The notes under the pieces are model-generated. The model was not told where the DNA came from, did not search any database, and saw only the letters and a program-made list of their open reading frames with translations. From IMG/VR virus record IMGVR_UViG_3300029892_000197, positions 1 to 39,108 of that record: a stretch of DNA of 39,108 nt; one strand, given 5' to 3'. Origin of the DNA: a virus. This document shows positions 4,351 through 13,964 of the stretch, one piece after another; within the stretch, counting starts at the first letter, position 1; each line of letters opens with the position of its first letter. The position numbers and the translations under genes were made by a program.

Positions 4351-5168
4351 TGGCTCTTCCCATCATTACCGCTGACCAGCGACTGCGCGAGAAGAAGGGG
4401 GTCAAGCTGGTGCTACTCGGCAAGAGCGGCATCGGCAAGACTACCCAACTCAAGACGCTTCCTGAAGACACCACCTTGTTCGTCGATCTGGAAGCCGGTG
4501 ATCTTGCGGTCAAGGATTGGCGGGGCGACTGTGTGCGGCCGACGACCTGGCCGGAATTCCGCGATCTGGTGGTGTTTCTGGCAGGGCCGAATCCGGCATT
4601 GCCTGCCGAGGCTCCGTACTCGGATGCTCACTATCAGCATGTCTGTGAGCGCTATGGCGATCCGGAACAGTTGGCGAAATACGACTGCTATTTCGTCGAC
4701 AGCATCACGGTGCTGGCCCGGCTGGCGCTGATCTGGGCTAAGACGCAGCCGCAGGCGATGTCCGAGCGCACAGGCAAACCCGACACGCGCGGCGCCTATG
4801 GGTTGCTCGGTACCGAGATGCTCGGTGCGCTGATGCATCTTCAGCACGCCCGGGGCAAGCATGTGGTGTTCGTGTCCATCCTCGATGAACGTCTCGATGA
4901 TTTCAATCGCAAGGTGTTCGTCCCGCAGATCGAGGGCGCCAAAACCTCGGCCGAGCTTCCCGGCATCGTGGATGAGGTGGTGACTCTGGCCGAGATAAAA
5001 GCCGAGGACGGCTCTGCCTACCGTGCCTTTGTCACCCACACCCTGAATCCCTACGGCTATCCCGCCAAGGATCGCTCCGGTCAGCTTGATTTGCTGGAGC
5101 CACCCGACTTGCGCGCGCTCATCGAGAAGTGCGCCACCGCAACCCAATCCCAAATTACCAAGGAGTAA
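4350..5168 (+). CDS. Sak4-like RecA-fold ATPase (phage recombinase, AAA_24)
   Basis: This 272-residue P-loop ATPase has Walker A GKSGIGKTT at residues 24-32 and a Walker B-like YDCYFVDSIT at about residue 113. Phage nucleotide-binding proteins of this AAA_24 type include Sak4, a shortened RecA/Rad51-like protein that anneals single strands with the help of an SSB. The next gene encodes an SSB-like protein and a Cas4-like exonuclease lies two kilobases on, which supports the recombination role. The start codon overlaps the antirepressor stop (TGATG). Sak4 is an inference from fold, size and neighbours; another ATPase of the same superfamily cannot be excluded. Confidence 0.78.
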   Translation: MALPIITADQRLREKKGVKLVLLGKSGIGKTTQLKTLPEDTTLFVDLEAGDLAVKDWRGDCVRPTTWPEFRDLVVFLAGPNPALPAEAPYSDAHYQHVCERYGDPEQLAKYDCYFVDSITVLARLALIWAKTQPQAMSERTGKPDTRGAYGLLGTEMLGALMHLQHARGKHVVFVSILDERLDDFNRKVFVPQIEGAKTSAELPGIVDEVVTLAEIKAEDGSAYRAFVTHTLNPYGYPAKDRSGQLDLLEPPDLRALIEKCATATQSQITKE

Positions 5169-6490: not shown

Positions 6491-7224
6491 TGAACTTCAA
6501 CTCCTCGTCAAGCCTCTCCGGTCAGGTCACGGCATTGGTCGATTTTGGAATGCAGCGCCTGCGTTCCGAAGAGGTGCCGCGTGACTACCTCGGGGCATCT
6601 CGTCTCGGCGTGTCCTGTGCGCGGGCGTTGCAGTATGAGTTTGCCAAGGCGCCAGTCGACCATGGTCGTGACCACGATGGACGCTTGCTACGCATCTTCA
6701 GGCGCGGCCATGTCATGGAGGATTGCATGGTCGACTGGCTACGGGCGGCAGGGTTCGATCTGCGCACTCGCAAGGCCAATGGTGATCAGTTTGGTTTCTC
6801 GGCGGCTGGTGGACGTCTGCAAGGACATATCGACGGCGTCATCGTCGGCGGTCCCCAGGGCTTCGCCTATCCCGCGCTCTGGGAGAACAAATGTCTGGGC
6901 TCGAAGTCCTGGCGCGATCTCGAAAAGAGTGGGTTGGCGGTGGCCAAGCCAGTCTATGCCGCGCAGGTGGCGATCTATCAAGCCTACCTCGAGTTGCATG
7001 AGCAGCCAGCCATCTTCACGGCGGTCAATGCCGACACCATGGAGATCTACACCGAATTGGTGCCCTTCGACGCAGCCCTGGCCCAACGCATGTCCGATCG
7101 GGCGCTGAACGTGATCTCGGCGACTGAAGCCGGCGAATTGCTTCCACGTGCCTTTCATGACCCCACCCATTTTGAGTGCCGGATGTGCGCATGGCAGGAC
7201 CGGTGCTGGAGGAATACAGCATGA
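6487..7224 (+). CDS. Cas4/AddB-like PD-(D/E)XK exonuclease with Fe-S cysteines
   Basis: This 245-residue nuclease has the PD-(D/E)XK core GHIDG (Asp116) and WENK (Glu133, Lys135). It also has the four-cysteine Fe-S arrangement known from Cas4 and AddB: a single N-terminal Cys44 (GVSCARALQY) and a C-terminal C-x2-C-x5-C at 231, 234 and 240. In those families the cluster staples the nuclease domain. With the Sak4-like ATPase and SSB-like protein upstream it probably makes the single-stranded ends for annealing, replacing lambda exonuclease. A site GGAAGGGGG (6471-6479) lies 7 bp before the ATG, which overlaps the previous stop; ATG 6490 is an alternative. Confidence 0.88.
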   Translation: MMNFNSSSSLSGQVTALVDFGMQRLRSEEVPRDYLGASRLGVSCARALQYEFAKAPVDHGRDHDGRLLRIFRRGHVMEDCMVDWLRAAGFDLRTRKANGDQFGFSAAGGRLQGHIDGVIVGGPQGFAYPALWENKCLGSKSWRDLEKSGLAVAKPVYAAQVAIYQAYLELHEQPAIFTAVNADTMEIYTELVPFDAALAQRMSDRALNVISATEAGELLPRAFHDPTHFECRMCAWQDRCWRNTA

Positions 7225-7436
7225 ACCCATCATCCATCAGCGATGTATTTGGCGAACGCCTGGTCGATGCAAGCGAGGCTGCCCATTGCCTGAATTTGCC
7301 CATGTACCTGCTCACGCATCCCAAGGAACGAGCACGACTGGGCATACCGCATTACCGGGTCGGCAAGCTCGTCCGCTTCAAATTGCACGAGTTGGAAACG
7401 TGGATGTTGGCACAGGGAGGCGCGGCGAATGCTTGA
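7221..7436 (+). CDS. Small winged-helix protein (AlpA/excisionase-like)
   Basis: This 71-residue protein has a helix-turn-helix with a wing: VDASEAAHCLNLPMYLLTHP, then IPHYRVGKLVRFKLHELETW. The arrangement is that of excisionase/AlpA-type DNA-binding proteins. It overlaps both neighbours (ATGA at the exonuclease stop, and 8 bp with the primase), so it is translationally coupled to replication. It could guide the primase to DNA, regulate the operon, or serve as recombination directionality factor; a similar HTH protein is encoded at 2550-2813, so the roles may be divided. Confidence 0.75.
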   Translation: MNPSSISDVFGERLVDASEAAHCLNLPMYLLTHPKERARLGIPHYRVGKLVRFKLHELETWMLAQGGAANA

Positions 7437-9711
7437 TTTCAACGATGCCCCGGTTGAGTTGCCATCTGAGAGCGGGGCGACACGTGAGTCGTTACGGACG
7501 GATCTCGTCGGCCGACTGGAATCCGTACTGGCCACGCTGTTCCCGGCAGGAAAGAAGCGCAAGGGTAAATTCCTCATCGGCGACGTGCTTGGCAGCCCAG
7601 GCGATAGCCTCGAAGTTGTTCTCGATGGCGACAAGGCCGGGCTATGGACGGATCGGGCGACCGGTGATGGCGGTGACATCTTTGATCTGATCGCAGCGCA
7701 TCTGGGTGCAGACGCGCAGACGGAGTTCCCGCGTGTGCTGCAGCATGCTGCTGATCTGCTCGGTCAGTCGCCCCCGGTCCCATCCCGCAAGACCAGGAAG
7801 GAGGTCCCGGTCGATGAACTTGGGCCGGCAACCGCAAAATGGGACTACCTCGATGCGGCTGGCAAACTGATTGCAGTTGTCTACCGCTACGACCCACCTG
7901 GTCGGAAGAAGGAATTCCGACCCTGGGATGCAAAGCGGCGCAAGATGGCTCCCCCCGAGCCGCGCCCTCTCTATAACCAGCCCGGAGTGGCCTTGGCCAG
8001 TCAAGTGGTACTGGTTGAGGGCGAGAAATGCGCGCAGGCCTTGATCGAGGTCGGCATCGTGGCGACCACGGCGATGCACGGCGCGAACGCCCCGGTCGAC
8101 AAAACCGACTGGTTGCCGCTGGCCGGCAAGTCGGTGCTGATCTGGCCTGACCGAGACAAGCCGGGCTGGGAATACGCAACGCAGGCGGCACAAGCCATCC
8201 TCTCGGCGGGGGCCAAGTCCTGCTTCATTCTGTACCCGCCCGAGGAGGCGGCAGAGGGATGGGATGCAGCGGATGCCATCTCAGAGGGATTTGATGTCGC
8301 CGCCTTCCTTGCCCATGGCCCGCGCCTGCAGATGCACGACATCACCGTGGATGCCGAGCCGGTCGCGAGCAGCGACGAATCGGTGTGGGGCACAGAGGAT
8401 GCATTGGCTCTGGCCTTCACCCGGCGTTATCACCGCGACTGGCGCTACGTTTCAACCTGGGGTCGCTGGCTGGTGTGGGATGGCAATCGCTGGCGTACCG
8501 AGGACACGCTGGCCGCCTCCGATCTGATCCGTAGCGTTTGCCGGCATGCCGCCGTGCGTGCCGAGAATCCCAAGGTGGCCGCCAAGCTGGCCAGTGCCAG
8601 TACGGTCGGTGGCGTTGAGCGGCTGTCGCGTGCGGACCGCAGGCATGCGGCCACCACTGAGGAATGGGATGCCGATCCATGGCTGCTCAATACCCCAGGT
8701 GGTGTCGTCGATCTGAAAACCGGCCGCCAGCGCCCACATGATCGTGCTGACCGGATGACGAAAATCACCACGGCCACACCTGGAGGTGACTGCCCGATCT
8801 GGCGTCAGTTCCTCGATGAGGTTACGGGAGGCGATACGGAGTTGCAGAGCTATCTGCAGCGAATGGTCGGCTACGCACTCACCGGGTCGACGCGAGAGCA
8901 TGCGCTGTTTTTCTTGTACGGCACGGGCGCGAATGGCAAGTCGGTGTTCGTGAACACGCTGGCCACCATCCTCGGTGACTACGCGACCAACGCGCCGATG
9001 GACACCTTCATGGAAACGCGCACCGACCGGCATCCGACCGACATGGCAGGGCTGCGCGGTGCACGCTTCGTTGCCGCCATCGAAACCGAACAGGGGCGTC
9101 GCTGGGCCGAATCGAAGGTCAAAAACCTGACCGGGGGCGACAAGATTTCGGCGCGATTCATGCGTCAGGACTTCTTCGAGTTTTTCCCGCAGTTCAAGTT
9201 GTTCGTGGCCGGCAACCACAAGCCGGCGATTCGCAACATCGACGAAGCGATGAAGCGGCGCCTGCACCTGATCCCGTTCACGATCACCGTGCCACCCGAG
9301 CGTCGCGACAAGCATCTGCAGCAAAAATTGCTGGCCGAGCGCGACGGCATCCTAGCCTGGGCGGTGCAGGGCTGCCTCGACTGGCAGCGTCTGGGCCGGC
9401 TTGATCCTCCCCAGCGAGTGGTCGAGGCGACCGAGGAATATTTCGAAGCCGAGGATGCACTGGGGCGTTGGCTGGATGAGTGCTGTGTGCGCGAGCCCAA
9501 TGCCAAGTCGCTGACCGCCGAACTGTTCAACGACTGGAAACAGTGGGCAGAGGCAGCAGGCGAATTCATCGGCTCGCAGCGGCGCTTTTCCGATCTGCTC
9601 ATCACACGCGGCATCGAGAAATGGCGCAACAGCATGGGCGTGCGGGGATTTCAGGGCGTCGGCCTCAAGAACCCGCCCGCGCCTGCTTACACCCCCTATG
9701 CCGACAAATGA
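7429..9711 (+). CDS. Phage primase-helicase, D5/P4 family
   Basis: This 760-residue replication protein has three parts. Residues about 60-185 form an N-terminal region that lacks a cysteine zinc finger. A TOPRIM-type segment follows (VLVEGEKCAQAL near 195, and LIWPDRDKPG near 240). The D5_N domain and SF3/D5-like helicase occupy about 325-660, with Walker A GTGANGKS at 498-505 and the segment FKLFVAGNHKPAIRNIDEAM near 590. It would synthesise primers and unwind the phage origin as in P4 alpha and poxvirus D5. AGGGAGG (7414-7420) precedes the ATG by 8 bp. An inverted-repeat element, a possible origin, lies directly downstream. Confidence 0.92.
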   Translation: MLDFNDAPVELPSESGATRESLRTDLVGRLESVLATLFPAGKKRKGKFLIGDVLGSPGDSLEVVLDGDKAGLWTDRATGDGGDIFDLIAAHLGADAQTEFPRVLQHAADLLGQSPPVPSRKTRKEVPVDELGPATAKWDYLDAAGKLIAVVYRYDPPGRKKEFRPWDAKRRKMAPPEPRPLYNQPGVALASQVVLVEGEKCAQALIEVGIVATTAMHGANAPVDKTDWLPLAGKSVLIWPDRDKPGWEYATQAAQAILSAGAKSCFILYPPEEAAEGWDAADAISEGFDVAAFLAHGPRLQMHDITVDAEPVASSDESVWGTEDALALAFTRRYHRDWRYVSTWGRWLVWDGNRWRTEDTLAASDLIRSVCRHAAVRAENPKVAAKLASASTVGGVERLSRADRRHAATTEEWDADPWLLNTPGGVVDLKTGRQRPHDRADRMTKITTATPGGDCPIWRQFLDEVTGGDTELQSYLQRMVGYALTGSTREHALFFLYGTGANGKSVFVNTLATILGDYATNAPMDTFMETRTDRHPTDMAGLRGARFVAAIETEQGRRWAESKVKNLTGGDKISARFMRQDFFEFFPQFKLFVAGNHKPAIRNIDEAMKRRLHLIPFTITVPPERRDKHLQQKLLAERDGILAWAVQGCLDWQRLGRLDPPQRVVEATEEYFEAEDALGRWLDECCVREPNAKSLTAELFNDWKQWAEAAGEFIGSQRRFSDLLITRGIEKWRNSMGVRGFQGVGLKNPPAPAYTPYADK

Positions 9712-9730
9712 CGCTCATGAAAAACCATCT

Positions 9731-9827
9731 GTCTGACGCAGCCGACGCTCTTTCACGTAACTCGCCACACGTGTGCGCGTGCGCGCCTCATGGAATGTTT
9801 CGACAAACCGTGTCGGCTGCGTCAGAC
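9731..9827. repeat. 16-bp inverted repeat with Z-DNA-prone core, candidate origin
   Basis: GTCTGACGCAGCCGAC (9731-9746) and GTCGGCTGCGTCAGAC (9812-9827) are perfect inverted copies separated by 65 bp. Inside the spacer lies a 21-bp strictly alternating pyrimidine-purine tract (9766-9786) beginning with the 10-bp palindrome CACACGTGTG (9766-9775). Such tracts favour Z-DNA. The element fills the gap between primase and resolvase, a typical place for a phage origin or a structured RNA. The resolvase reading frame remains open across it, so part of it could be translated if an upstream start is used. Confidence 0.7.
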
Positions 9828-9851
9828 CGAAAGCAAGAAAGGACTGAACAT

Positions 9852-10313
9852 ATGAACACGACGATCCTGGCCCTTGATTTGGGTACCAACACAGGCTGGG
9901 CTGTCCGCCTCAAGGACGGCCAGATCATCAGTGACACGGAGACCTTTCGGCCTCAGCGCTTCGAGGGAGGAGGCATGCGCTATCTGCGCTTCAAGCGGTG
10001 GCTCACGGAGATCAAGCAATCTGGCGAAATCGATGCCGTTTACTTCGAGGAGGTGCGACGCCACGTCGGTGTCGATGCCGCTCATGCCTATGGTGGTTTC
10101 CTGGCCACGCTTACTGCATGGTGCGAGCACCACCAGATCCCGTACCAGGGCGTGCCGGTCGGCACGATCAAGAAGCACGCGACCGGCAAGGGTAATGCGG
10201 GCAAGGACGAGATGATCCTCGCCGCCCAGTCACGGGGTCACGATCCCAAAGACGACAACGAAGCCGATGCTCTGGCACTGCTCCACTGGGCTATCGAGAC
10301 ACAGGAGGTGTGA
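9852..10313 (+). CDS. RuvC-like Holliday junction resolvase
   Basis: This 153-residue protein has the RNase H-like RuvC fold. The first strand is ILALDLGTNTGWA (catalytic Asp9), the second acidic motif is YFEEV (Glu66/67), and the C-terminal motif is DDNEADALAL (Asp135, Asp139). It would cleave four-way junctions or branched replication intermediates before packaging. The ATG at 9852 is chosen because the fold normally begins within a few residues of the start and AAAGGA lies about 9 bp upstream. The frame is open back to 9480, so longer products running through the inverted repeat are possible but unlikely. Confidence 0.88.
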   Translation: MNTTILALDLGTNTGWAVRLKDGQIISDTETFRPQRFEGGGMRYLRFKRWLTEIKQSGEIDAVYFEEVRRHVGVDAAHAYGGFLATLTAWCEHHQIPYQGVPVGTIKKHATGKGNAGKDEMILAAQSRGHDPKDDNEADALALLHWAIETQEV

Positions 10314-11192: not shown

Positions 11193-11211
11193 ACCCGCCC
11201 CTGTGGCGGGT
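11193..11211 (+). terminator. Hairpin just upstream of the first methyltransferase
   Basis: ACCCGCC (11193-11199) pairs with GGCGGGT (11205-11211) around a 5-nt loop and is followed by TCTTGCATTT. It is terminator-like with a weak T tract. It ends only 12 bp before the methyltransferase ATG, so it could also act as an attenuator or hide the ribosome binding site. Confidence 0.65.
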
Positions 11212-11223
11212 TCTTGCATTTCT

Positions 11224-12621
11224 ATGACCGAACAACTGCGCGTCGAGTATCGCAAGATCGAGACGCTGATCCCTTTTGCCCGCAATCCGCGCACGCATTC
11301 CGAGGCGCAGATCGCCAAGCTGGCCTCCAGCATCGTCGAGTTCGGCTGGACACAGCCCATCCTCGTCGACGGCGCCAACGGCATCATTGCCGGCCACGGC
11401 CGACTGGCGGCAGCGCGCAAGCTGGATCTGCCGGAAGTGCCGGTCATCGAACTCGGCCACCTCAACGCGGCACAGAAGCGGGCTTACGTGATTGCCGACA
11501 ACCGACTGGCGCTGGATGCCGGGTGGGATGAGGAACTGCTTTCGCTGGAACTGGCCGAGTTGTCCGAGGCGGGTTACGACCTGCCCATGACCGGCTTTAC
11601 CAACGAGGAGATCGAGGAACTGCTGGTTGGGGCAGAACAAGCTCTTCAGGATGAGCCCTCGGATGAAACCGAAGATGATGCTGCCGACGAGGTTCCCGAT
11701 ACCTCGGCTAACCCAGTCTCACGCCCTGGCGATATCTGGCAGATCGGCGCGCACCGCGTCATCTGCGGCGATGCCACCGATCTGACCGTTATCCGAACGC
11801 TGATGGCCGGCGAGCAGGCCTCCCTGTGCTTCACTTCGCCACCCTATGGCAATCAGCGGGACTACACGAACACCATCATTGATTGGGATGTCCTGATGCG
11901 GGGCGTCTTCGCCAACCTGCCGATGGCCACCAACGGCCAGGTGCTGGTCAATCTTGGCCTCATCCATCGTGACAACGAAGTCATCCCGTACTGGGACGGC
12001 TGGATCGACTGGATGCGTACCCAGGGATGGCGACGTTTTGCCTGGTACGTCTGGGACCAAGGACCGGGATTGCCCGGAGACTGGAATGGCCGGCTGGCTC
12101 CGTCCTTCGAATTTGTCTTCCACTTCAACCGCCAGGCACGTCAGGCAAACAAGATCGTGCCCTGCAAATTTGCCGGTCAGGAAACCCATCTGCGCAAGGA
12201 CGGCAGTTCGACAGCCATGCGCAAAGCTGATGGCACGATCGGGGGCTGGACCGCTGCCGGTCAGCCGACGCAGGAGACCAAGATTCCAGATTCCGTGATC
12301 CGCATCATGCGGCACAAAGGCAAGATCGGGCAGGACATCGATCACCCGGCCGTGTTCCCGGTGGCGCTGCCCCAGTTCATTCTGGAGGCCTACACCGATG
12401 CCGGCGATATCGTCTTCGAACCCTTCTGCGGTTCGGGCACGACCCTGCTGGCGGGAGAGCGCACCGGCCGAAAGGTACGGGCGACCGAGATTGCCCCCGA
12501 ATATGTGGATGTCGCCGTGAAGCGCTTCCAGCAGAACTTTCCCGAGGTGCCGGTGACGCTCGTGGCGACGGGACAGACCTTCTCGGCGGTGGCCAGCGAA
12601 CGTCTGGGAGGTGCGGCATGA
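11224..12621 (+). CDS. ParB-domain/DNA methyltransferase fusion, SPPY type
   Basis: This 465-residue protein joins an N-terminal ParB/Srx-like domain (about 5-100, with NPRTHSEAQIAKL and GIIAGHGRLAAARKL) to a beta-class DNA methyltransferase. Motif IV is TSPPYGNQ (SPPY at 205-208) and motif I is FCGSGT (401-406), so the order is IV, target recognition, I. SPPY is most often found in N4-cytosine enzymes, so N4-methylcytosine is the likely product, though not certain. No restriction enzyme lies nearby, so it is an orphan, probably protecting phage DNA. ATG 11224 has no clear Shine-Dalgarno; GTG 11203 is an alternative inside the upstream hairpin. Confidence 0.9.
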   Translation: MTEQLRVEYRKIETLIPFARNPRTHSEAQIAKLASSIVEFGWTQPILVDGANGIIAGHGRLAAARKLDLPEVPVIELGHLNAAQKRAYVIADNRLALDAGWDEELLSLELAELSEAGYDLPMTGFTNEEIEELLVGAEQALQDEPSDETEDDAADEVPDTSANPVSRPGDIWQIGAHRVICGDATDLTVIRTLMAGEQASLCFTSPPYGNQRDYTNTIIDWDVLMRGVFANLPMATNGQVLVNLGLIHRDNEVIPYWDGWIDWMRTQGWRRFAWYVWDQGPGLPGDWNGRLAPSFEFVFHFNRQARQANKIVPCKFAGQETHLRKDGSSTAMRKADGTIGGWTAAGQPTQETKIPDSVIRIMRHKGKIGQDIDHPAVFPVALPQFILEAYTDAGDIVFEPFCGSGTTLLAGERTGRKVRATEIAPEYVDVAVKRFQQNFPEVPVTLVATGQTFSAVASERLGGAA

Positions 12622-13964
12622 CGATTTCCTGGCTTGCCGACAAGATCGAACAATGGCCGACGGCCAAGCTGGTGCCGTATGCCCGCAACTCCCGCACGCA
12701 CTCGGAAGCCCAAGTTGCCCAGATCGCGGCGTCGATCGCCGAGTTCGGTTTCACCAACCCGATCCTGGCCGGCGGCGATGGTGTCATCGTGGCGGGGCAT
12801 GGCCGTCTGGCCGCTGCACAGAAACTCGGTCTGGCCATGGTGCCGGTCGTGGTGCTAGACCATCTGACGCCCACCCAACGCCGGGCCCTGGTGATCGCGG
12901 ACAACCGCATCGCCGAGAACGCCGGCTGGGACGAGGCGATGCTGCAGGTGGAACTGGCCGCGTTGCAGGACGATCAATTCGACCTGGCTCTGACCGGCTT
13001 CGATGCCGACGCCCTGGCCGATCTACTGGTGGGAGAGGAAACCACTACCGAAGGCGACACCGACGAGGATGCGGTTCCGGACGGGTCCGGCACCGTCGTA
13101 TCCCGGGCGGGCGACGTCTGGATCTGTGGTGAGCACCGGGTGATCTGTGGTGATGCGACCGATGTCGATGCCTACGCGATGGTGCTCGGCGACAAGATTG
13201 CCGACATGGTCTTCACCGATCCGCCGTACAACGTCAATTACGCCAACTCGGCCAAGGACAGGATGCGCGGCAAGGATCGTGCGATCCTCAACGACAATCT
13301 GGGCGATGGTTTCTACGATTTCCTGCTGGCAGCATTGACGCCTACCGTAGCGCATTGCCAGGGCGGCATCTACGTCGCCATGTCGTCGAGCGAACTCGAC
13401 CGACTGCAGGCGGCGTTCCGTGCAGCCGGTGGCCACTGGTCGACCTTCGTCATCTGGGCCAAGAACACTTTTACCCTGGGTCGGGCCGACTACCAGCGCC
13501 AGTACGAACCAATTCTCTACGGCTGGCCCGAGGGCGCCGATCGTCACTGGTGCGGAGATCGCGACCAGGGCGACGTCTGGCAGATCAAGAAGCCGCAGAA
13601 GAACGATCTGCACCCGACTATGAAGCCGGTGGAACTGGTGGAACGGGCGATTCGGAATTCCAGTCGCCCGGGGGATGTGGTGATGGATCCCTTCGGTGGG
13701 TCAGGCACCACGATGATCGCGGCCCACAAGTCAGGCCGCAAAGCGCGGCTGATCGAACTGGATCCGAAGTACGTCGATGTGATCGTTCGCCGCTGGCAGG
13801 ACTATGCCGGAGCGAAGGCCATCAGGCTGTCCGATGGCGTGGCATTCGACGCGCTGTCAGTCGGTGGGGAACTCCGGCAGGAGGTCGCCGCTGGTGATGT
13901 CGGCGAAGTAAGTGACGTTGCCGAATTCGCCGGGGTCATCGGCGAGGATGACGCCGCCGACTGA
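12618..13964 (+). CDS. ParB-domain/DNA N6-adenine methyltransferase fusion, DPPY type
   Basis: This 448-residue protein repeats the layout of its neighbour: a ParB-like domain (about 10-100, with NSRTHSEAQVAQIAASI and GVIVAGHGRLAAAQKL) and a beta-class methyltransferase with DPPY at 201-204 and FGGSGT at 359-364. DPPY points to N6-adenine methylation. It starts by ATGA overlap with the upstream gene and has GGGAGG before the ATG, so the two are co-expressed. The last 35 residues, after the conserved core ends near residue 412, are encoded antisense to the minus-strand gene at 13857-14063 and look unlike the family; this tail may be non-native. Confidence 0.9.
   Translation: MTISWLADKIEQWPTAKLVPYARNSRTHSEAQVAQIAASIAEFGFTNPILAGGDGVIVAGHGRLAAAQKLGLAMVPVVVLDHLTPTQRRALVIADNRIAENAGWDEAMLQVELAALQDDQFDLALTGFDADALADLLVGEETTTEGDTDEDAVPDGSGTVVSRAGDVWICGEHRVICGDATDVDAYAMVLGDKIADMVFTDPPYNVNYANSAKDRMRGKDRAILNDNLGDGFYDFLLAALTPTVAHCQGGIYVAMSSSELDRLQAAFRAAGGHWSTFVIWAKNTFTLGRADYQRQYEPILYGWPEGADRHWCGDRDQGDVWQIKKPQKNDLHPTMKPVELVERAIRNSSRPGDVVMDPFGGSGTTMIAAHKSGRKARLIELDPKYVDVIVRRWQDYAGAKAIRLSDGVAFDALSVGGELRQEVAAGDVGEVSDVAEFAGVIGEDDAAD

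Follow-up and report, generated by a model that had tools for sequence, protein, structure and literature searches.

What is the role of a perfect inverted repeat that encloses a Z-DNA-prone tract in the short gap between a phage primase gene and a resolvase gene? This question is raised by positions 9731-9827 of a 39,108-nt viral sequence (IMG/VR record IMGVR_UViG_3300029892_000197, positions 1 to 39,108), the whole of which is termed the window here, and in which an initial annotation had interpreted the segment, next to a primase of D5/P4 type, as a replication origin or a structured regulatory element. The present analysis leads us to propose, with high confidence and in the absence of binding or replication data, that the segment is a phage replication origin which works in the manner of those of SaPI and P4 and is recognised by the C-terminal domain of the primase-helicase itself. 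If so, a large group of temperate proteobacterial phages, for which no origin is annotated in the records examined, would gain a concrete and short one. D5-type primase-helicases are widespread, yet little is understood of how they load at origins; a small phage system in which the loading site is defined would therefore be useful.

Gene Context and Anatomy of the Element

The element lies, as the initial annotation had placed it, between a gene for a D5-type primase-helicase (7429-9711, plus strand) and a gene for a RuvC-like Holliday junction resolvase (9852-10313, plus strand; PHROG 159, 1.4e-36). The primase-helicase, the proposed initiator, combines a toprim-like primase, a D5_N/SF3 helicase and a C-terminal winged helix; it matches D5_N (4.6e-38), DUF5906 (4e-10) and, weakly, Toprim (0.0021) in Pfam, and a DNA primase family in PHROG (2e-243). 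The left arm of the inverted repeat, GTCTGACGCAGCCGAC, occupies 9731-9746 on the plus strand, and its exact reverse complement, the right arm, is found at 9812-9827 on the minus strand, separated from the ruvC start codon by a gap of 24 nt. The arms are thus a perfect 16-bp repeat around 65 bp, and the strictly alternating pyrimidine-purine run of 21 nt within them, CACACGTGTGCGCGTGCGCGC (9766-9786, no strand assigned), is Z-DNA-prone and is proposed as a central opening or structural element; both features had been read correctly from the sequence at the outset. On either side of the tract lie a conserved inner-left segment, CGTAACTC (9756-9763, plus strand), which forms half of a weak inner inverted repeat, and a conserved inner-right segment, GTTTCG (9797-9802, minus strand), which pairs with it imperfectly. 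Under the proposed origin reading, the functional core would extend over about 9728-9830.

With loops of up to 100 nt allowed, the 16-bp arms are the longest perfect inverted repeat in the window, and none of 200 shuffles that preserved its dinucleotides reached a repeat of this length; perfect arms are unlikely to have arisen by chance. The alternating run is also the longest of its type in the window. Alone, however, it is borderline, and because 21 nt were reached in 9 of the 200 shuffles, the tract needs comparative evidence. Cumulative GC skew across the window has no turning point at 9.7 kb, which counts against an origin there, and GC skew was dropped as a source of origin evidence. In P4, crr is a second cis region carrying the iterons of ori. 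No crr-like second iteron cluster is present in the window, where the two exact matches to the iteron pair described below both fall within the element and near matches number 38 (32 expected).

Elsewhere in the window, another long perfect inverted repeat, with 14-bp arms, lies at 6651-6739 inside a Cas4-like exonuclease gene, and a tandem pair of paralogues (11203-12621 and 12618-13964) each encode an N4/N6 DNA methylase that carries a ParB-like domain at its N-terminus. A betaproteobacterial MAG (L083, DDFG01000004.1) contains a module nearly identical to that of the window (primase 97%, RuvC 99%), which suggests the host group of the phage. Wolbachia phage WO records, such as L164, encode a RuvC-like protein of approximately 60% identity that adjoins a DNA methylase, without a D5-type primase.

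Conservation of the Element and Nature of the Arms

Relatives were found via their RuvC-like proteins among viral contigs, named genomes and phage AcaML1, yielding 198 distinct primase-ruvC gaps with a full-length primase alignment, of which one containing Ns was set aside to leave 197. The gaps are nearly all 114-158 nt long, and the architecture of left arm, middle and right arm recurs in the 197 distinct gaps, with arms that have changed yet still match each other. Host groups named for the genome loci comprise Burkholderiales, Rhodocyclales, Nitrosomonadales, Lysobacterales, Hydrogenophilales and one Nitrospira. A nucleotide search of phages with the element gave no match, because arms and loop drift too far. 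The initial annotation would have been refuted had relatives with the same primase lacked the repeat, or had the arms failed to covary. Neither was the case: relatives with the same primase carry the element, 92.7% of cells are paired and 13 of 17 pairs have two-sided change, a level that 0 of 500 shuffles come near and that slid controls do not approach either.

Covariation of this kind may point to a structured RNA in the primase-ruvC transcript, as a leader, terminator or processing hairpin controlling ruvC expression, the more so as the plus strand folds as a long nested hairpin (z -5.9) and G.T mismatches outnumber A.C in the arm alignment by 51 to 19. However, the wobble bias is gone when mismatches are counted as tree events (47 G.T, 37 A.C and 58 others), and the minus strand folds too. 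Further, the right arm is not followed by a T-run, the ruvC ribosome-binding site lies outside the element, and no Rfam family is matched in the window at the gathering threshold.

Alignment on the arms instead resolves each of them into a TGACNNA unit followed, 9 or 10 bp on, by an NGAC unit, with the right arm inverted. In the window, the left arm contains TGACGCA at 9734-9740 and CGACGC at 9743-9748, a period of 9, and the right arm contains TGACGCA at 9818-9824 and CGACAC at 9810-9815, both on the minus strand. This strict pattern is met in 179 of the 197 distinct gaps, the period is equal in both arms in 196 of 197 (157 at 9 and 39 at 10), and TGAC is near-invariant across relatives. The tandem units within one arm agree in 82 of 166 cases (shuffle mean 27, maximum 43), and in a TGAA variant all four units have changed. 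Base pairing between arms fails to predict such agreement between tandem units, whereas one protein recognising each unit does, and the units are thus taken to be iterons. Between close relatives the arms have the lowest substitution rate of all regions, at 32 of 1998 sites; the inner segments differ at 144 of 2644 and the flanks at 186 of 3051. From these comparisons, and without binding data, a description of the arms as inverted pairs of iterons, putatively bound by protein, appears to fit better than that of a cruciform or RNA hairpin.

Co-Evolution with the Primase-Helicase C-Terminal Domain

A candidate for the protein that reads the iterons is the primase-helicase itself. AlphaFold2 models, fold matches and iteron tracking delimit a winged-helix, origin-binding-like domain at approximately residues 674-748 (codons 9448-9672, plus strand), over most of which pLDDT is 91-95. 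Within it, residues 717-726 (9577-9606, plus strand; model helix 427-436) form helix 3 of a winged helix with a two-strand wing. Fold matches of the domain model include the DNA-binding domain of RFX1 (Z 9.9), the C-terminal domain of a primase-polymerase from a large eukaryotic virus (Z 9.0) and 1ka8, the origin-binding domain of P4 (Z 8.0 with an rmsd of 2.3 over 72 residues), the last near-tied with other RFX-type winged helices. A model of residues 291-760 has the SaPI5 primase-helicase 7om0 as its closest fold match (Z 26.0, rmsd 6.0 over 348 residues), and papillomavirus E1 is among the fold matches of the helicase-half model (Z 13.7).

Across 88 non-redundant primases, iteron similarity correlates with the identity of residues 691-760 (r 0.64), less so with every other part of the primase, and scarcely with RuvC (0.15). 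When the rest of the primase and RuvC are controlled for, residues 691-760 retain a partial correlation of 0.54, compared with -0.01 for the rest of the primase and 0.004 for RuvC; the maximum in 2000 permutations was 0.11, so that 0 of 2000 reach 0.54. At the level of single positions, iteron base 6, which is C or G in period-9 loci, is predicted better by residue 718 (R718 in the window, codon 9580-9582), in helix 3, than by any other of 537 variable primase columns. The two fit in 62 of 64 loci (38 C-R, 24 G-K, 2 C-K and 0 G-R), and phylogenetically independent pairs taken on supported branches fit in 8 of 8 cases (p 0.008). Residue 718 was chosen after the fact from all columns, and the next nine best columns all fall within residues 687-758. 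Winged helix and iteron may thus be related by a code, in which GSQRRF occurs with TGACGCA, GSQKRF or GSVKRF with TGACGGA, and GTSRWL with TGACCGA; a readable code between the winged helix of an SF3 initiator and its iterons would be of interest in itself. Recognition of the iterons by the C-terminal domain is supported by co-evolution only, and binding is inferred. The initial annotation is thereby supported, and the co-evolution points specifically to an origin read by this domain.

Linkage of the Element to the Helicase Half

In a set of 48 loci (37 distinct gaps), the toprim half and RuvC are kept and the helicase half is instead RepA/RecA-like. The iteron-pair element is present in 0 of the 37 distinct gaps, in which the longest alternating run is 10. 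These gaps are about 290-311 nt long and carry other repeats and a hairpin instead; the repeats (in L017, L006, L009, L132 and approximately 44 other loci) fall into iteron-like GTTGGCA, GCAAACT or GCAATCTG classes, and a conserved hairpin, CTCCTACTACGTAGGAGAGGG, is present in most. The swapped gaps appear to hold a second, unrelated origin-like element in the equivalent position.

Three scans of viral contigs with the iterons only, using no protein information, returned 291 hits, 275 of which are directly 3' of a homologous primase. As the helicase-swapped loci lack the element and nearly all iterons-only hits adjoin the primase, the element belongs to the primase-helicase. An adjacent ruvC is missing in 27 of the 275 primase-linked hits, and ruvC is thus not required for the element. 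These observations weigh on three readings in which the neighbouring gene is central. The first, that the element is a cruciform substrate or resolution site for the RuvC-like resolvase, has in its favour the adjacent gene and the hairpin potential of the arms. However, iteron similarity is independent of RuvC, as the partial correlation of 0.004 indicates, the element is found in none of the 37 gaps that keep ruvC with another helicase half, and 27 elements have no ruvC beside them, such that we give this possibility almost no weight. The same loci return to the structured RNA considered above, as the element is present without the ruvC that such an RNA would control, is absent with ruvC kept where the helicase half is swapped, and has iterons whose similarity does not depend on RuvC; control of ruvC through an RNA is accordingly judged very improbable, if less so than a resolution site. 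A third possibility is that the primase-helicase or another regulator represses or activates downstream genes from an operator here and does not start replication, as the palindromic putative binding site ahead of ruvC, 24 nt before its start codon, might indicate. Yet the element is 3' of the primase whichever gene comes next, paired iterons with a symmetric core of 60-70 bp exceed what an operator needs, and replacement along with a helicase half is what an origin would be expected to show. An operator in place of an origin is therefore rated marginally below the RNA, although a secondary regulatory role of the element is not excluded. All three readings remain weaker than that of an origin.

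The scans yielded further configurations. One viral contig (L429) contains a tandem pair of complete iteron elements, at 4816-4898 and 4934-5016. TGACGSA-type inverted iteron pairs in L457, L511, L553, L559, L591 and L665 lack both an alternating tract and a primase resembling that of the window, and may be the origins of other replicons; the centre is AT-rich in L511 and L457. In L552, L482, L557, L565 and L597, iteron elements lie 3' of distant D5 primases (42-47% identity) without an adjacent ruvC, and L557 and L565 have 30-nt alternating runs. Downstream of the primases of BIP-1 and Arthrobacter phage Yang, inspected by eye only, no such iterons or alternating tract were seen.

The Alternating Tract

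The comparative evidence that the tract requires comes from several sources. The alternating run has a median of 21 nt in the 197 distinct gaps, as opposed to a shuffle median of 8, and runs of at least 14 occur in 86% of iterons-only hits and in 0.5% of shuffles. Among loci with primases less than 45% identical, a long alternating run is kept in 7 of 11, and the other 4 have iterons but no such run. Between close pairs, differences within the tract comprise 29 transitions and 5 transversions, compared with 193 and 169 elsewhere (Fisher p 2e-4), a pattern that implies selection for alternation itself as the sequence drifts. As a hairpin the tract was rejected, since its self-complementarity (5.1) is only slightly above that of alternating shuffles (4.7), and alternation rather than pairing looks selected. 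However, complementarity between the segments flanking the tract is higher for cognate than for non-cognate pairs, and from this a role for an extruded hairpin remains possible. Some members have no long alternation, so the tract would seem helpful rather than indispensable, or replaceable.

The expectation of an AT-rich opening region between the iteron sets is not met. The GC content of the tract is 69%, compared with 56% for the whole gap, and is the higher of the two in 75 of 76 cases. The SaPIbov1 origin is AT-rich between its iteron sets, unlike the middle of the present element with its GC-rich alternating tract. It can be suggested tentatively, as a possibility we hold somewhat short of even, that this family of phage origins opens its duplex at a GC-rich alternating tract and not at an AT-rich element, with a B-to-Z or similar non-B transition, flanked by the two inverted iteron pairs, acting as the switch that opens the strands, and with alternation selected while the sequence drifts. 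Nothing here demonstrates that Z-DNA or a cruciform actually forms, and any non-B structure is inferred. Should opening indeed take place at the tract, this would be a natural example of an origin that makes use of a Z-prone sequence.

Discussion

These data allow a mechanism to be proposed. Its foundation in sequence analysis consists of the architecture, its conservation, the covariation of arms and tandem iterons, the co-evolution with the C-terminal domain, the co-replacement with the helicase half and the prevalence of transitions as the tract drifts; what is inferred comprises binding, the loading of hexamers, opening, priming and initiation. The primase-helicase would bind the DNA just downstream of its own gene via the C-terminal winged helix. 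The two iterons of each arm (TGACGCA...CGAC) have the same orientation and are spaced by one helical turn, and the pairs of the two arms point towards each other, such that two initiator assemblies could load symmetrically, probably as two SF3 hexamers, head to head, as proposed for SaPI Rep. The 60-70 bp between the assemblies would then be opened and the fused primase would start strands. The GC-rich alternating tract probably aids opening via a non-B form in supercoiled DNA, for which the candidates are Z-DNA or, together with the inner repeat, an extruded hairpin.

Among SF3 helicases, SV40 T antigen and papillomavirus E1 load at recognition sites that are paired, inverted and adjacent to each other. 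In the present element, by contrast, the sites are 60-70 bp apart, and the predicted DNA-binding domain is C-terminal, unlike that of T antigen and E1, which is N-terminal (PMC7581432). A nearer counterpart is P4 alpha, in which a toprim primase is fused to an SF3 helicase and a C-terminal winged helix binds origin repeats (PMC4234260). The initiator proposed here likewise has a predicted C-terminal winged-helix domain (1ka8, Z 8.0) on a toprim-like primase-SF3 helicase; however, both the iteron and its arrangement differ from those of P4 ori. In SaPI, the C-terminal domain of Rep recognises iterons directly downstream of rep, and two hexamers have been proposed (PMC7581432). The two systems share a D5/SF3 initiator fused to a primase and paired iterons directly downstream of the initiator gene. 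The present element differs from SaPI in having only four iterons, as two inverted pairs, and a primase part that is toprim-like where that of SaPI is an archaeo-eukaryotic primase. SCCmec Cch2, a relative of SaPI5 Rep, is a D5-type helicase that uses its C-terminal domain to bind direct repeats located just downstream of its gene; there, the iterons are three direct AAGTG-type units, an inverted repeat is dispensable for binding and no primase is fused (PMC7581432). The type of helicase and the position of the repeats are as in Cch2, but inverted iteron pairs, a fused primase and an alternating tract (none is reported for Cch2) set the present element apart.

A comparison with pRN1 brings up the remaining alternative, namely that the working form of the origin is an extruded stem-loop, as a cruciform or single strand, with arm sequence secondary, as proposed for that plasmid. 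In pRN1, an essential stem-loop of approximately 100 nt lies directly 3' of the SF3 replication gene and, as reported, has neither iteron structure nor sequence-specific binding (PMC4234260). The present element resembles this stem-loop origin and that of phage BIP-1 as an inverted-repeat element of approximately 100 nt immediately 3' of an SF3 replication gene, conserved more in structure than in sequence, and its inner segments are complementary as well. However, a sequence-independent stem needs none of the near-invariant TGAC, the agreeing tandem iterons or the tracking of the C-terminal domain by the arms, and specific binding, not reported for pRN1 (PMC4234260), is what the iterons and their co-evolution with the initiator would imply. 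An origin that works chiefly as an extruded stem-loop is thus considered unlikely, if the least so of the alternatives weighed, and an origin read through its iterons is preferred. No published description of the element was found in the open literature searched. Relative to known systems, it joins the layouts of SaPI and pRN1 and adds the alternating tract, and what is new is the inverted arrangement of the iteron pairs, a readable code between initiator and iterons, and a GC-rich alternating tract that appears to be under selection.
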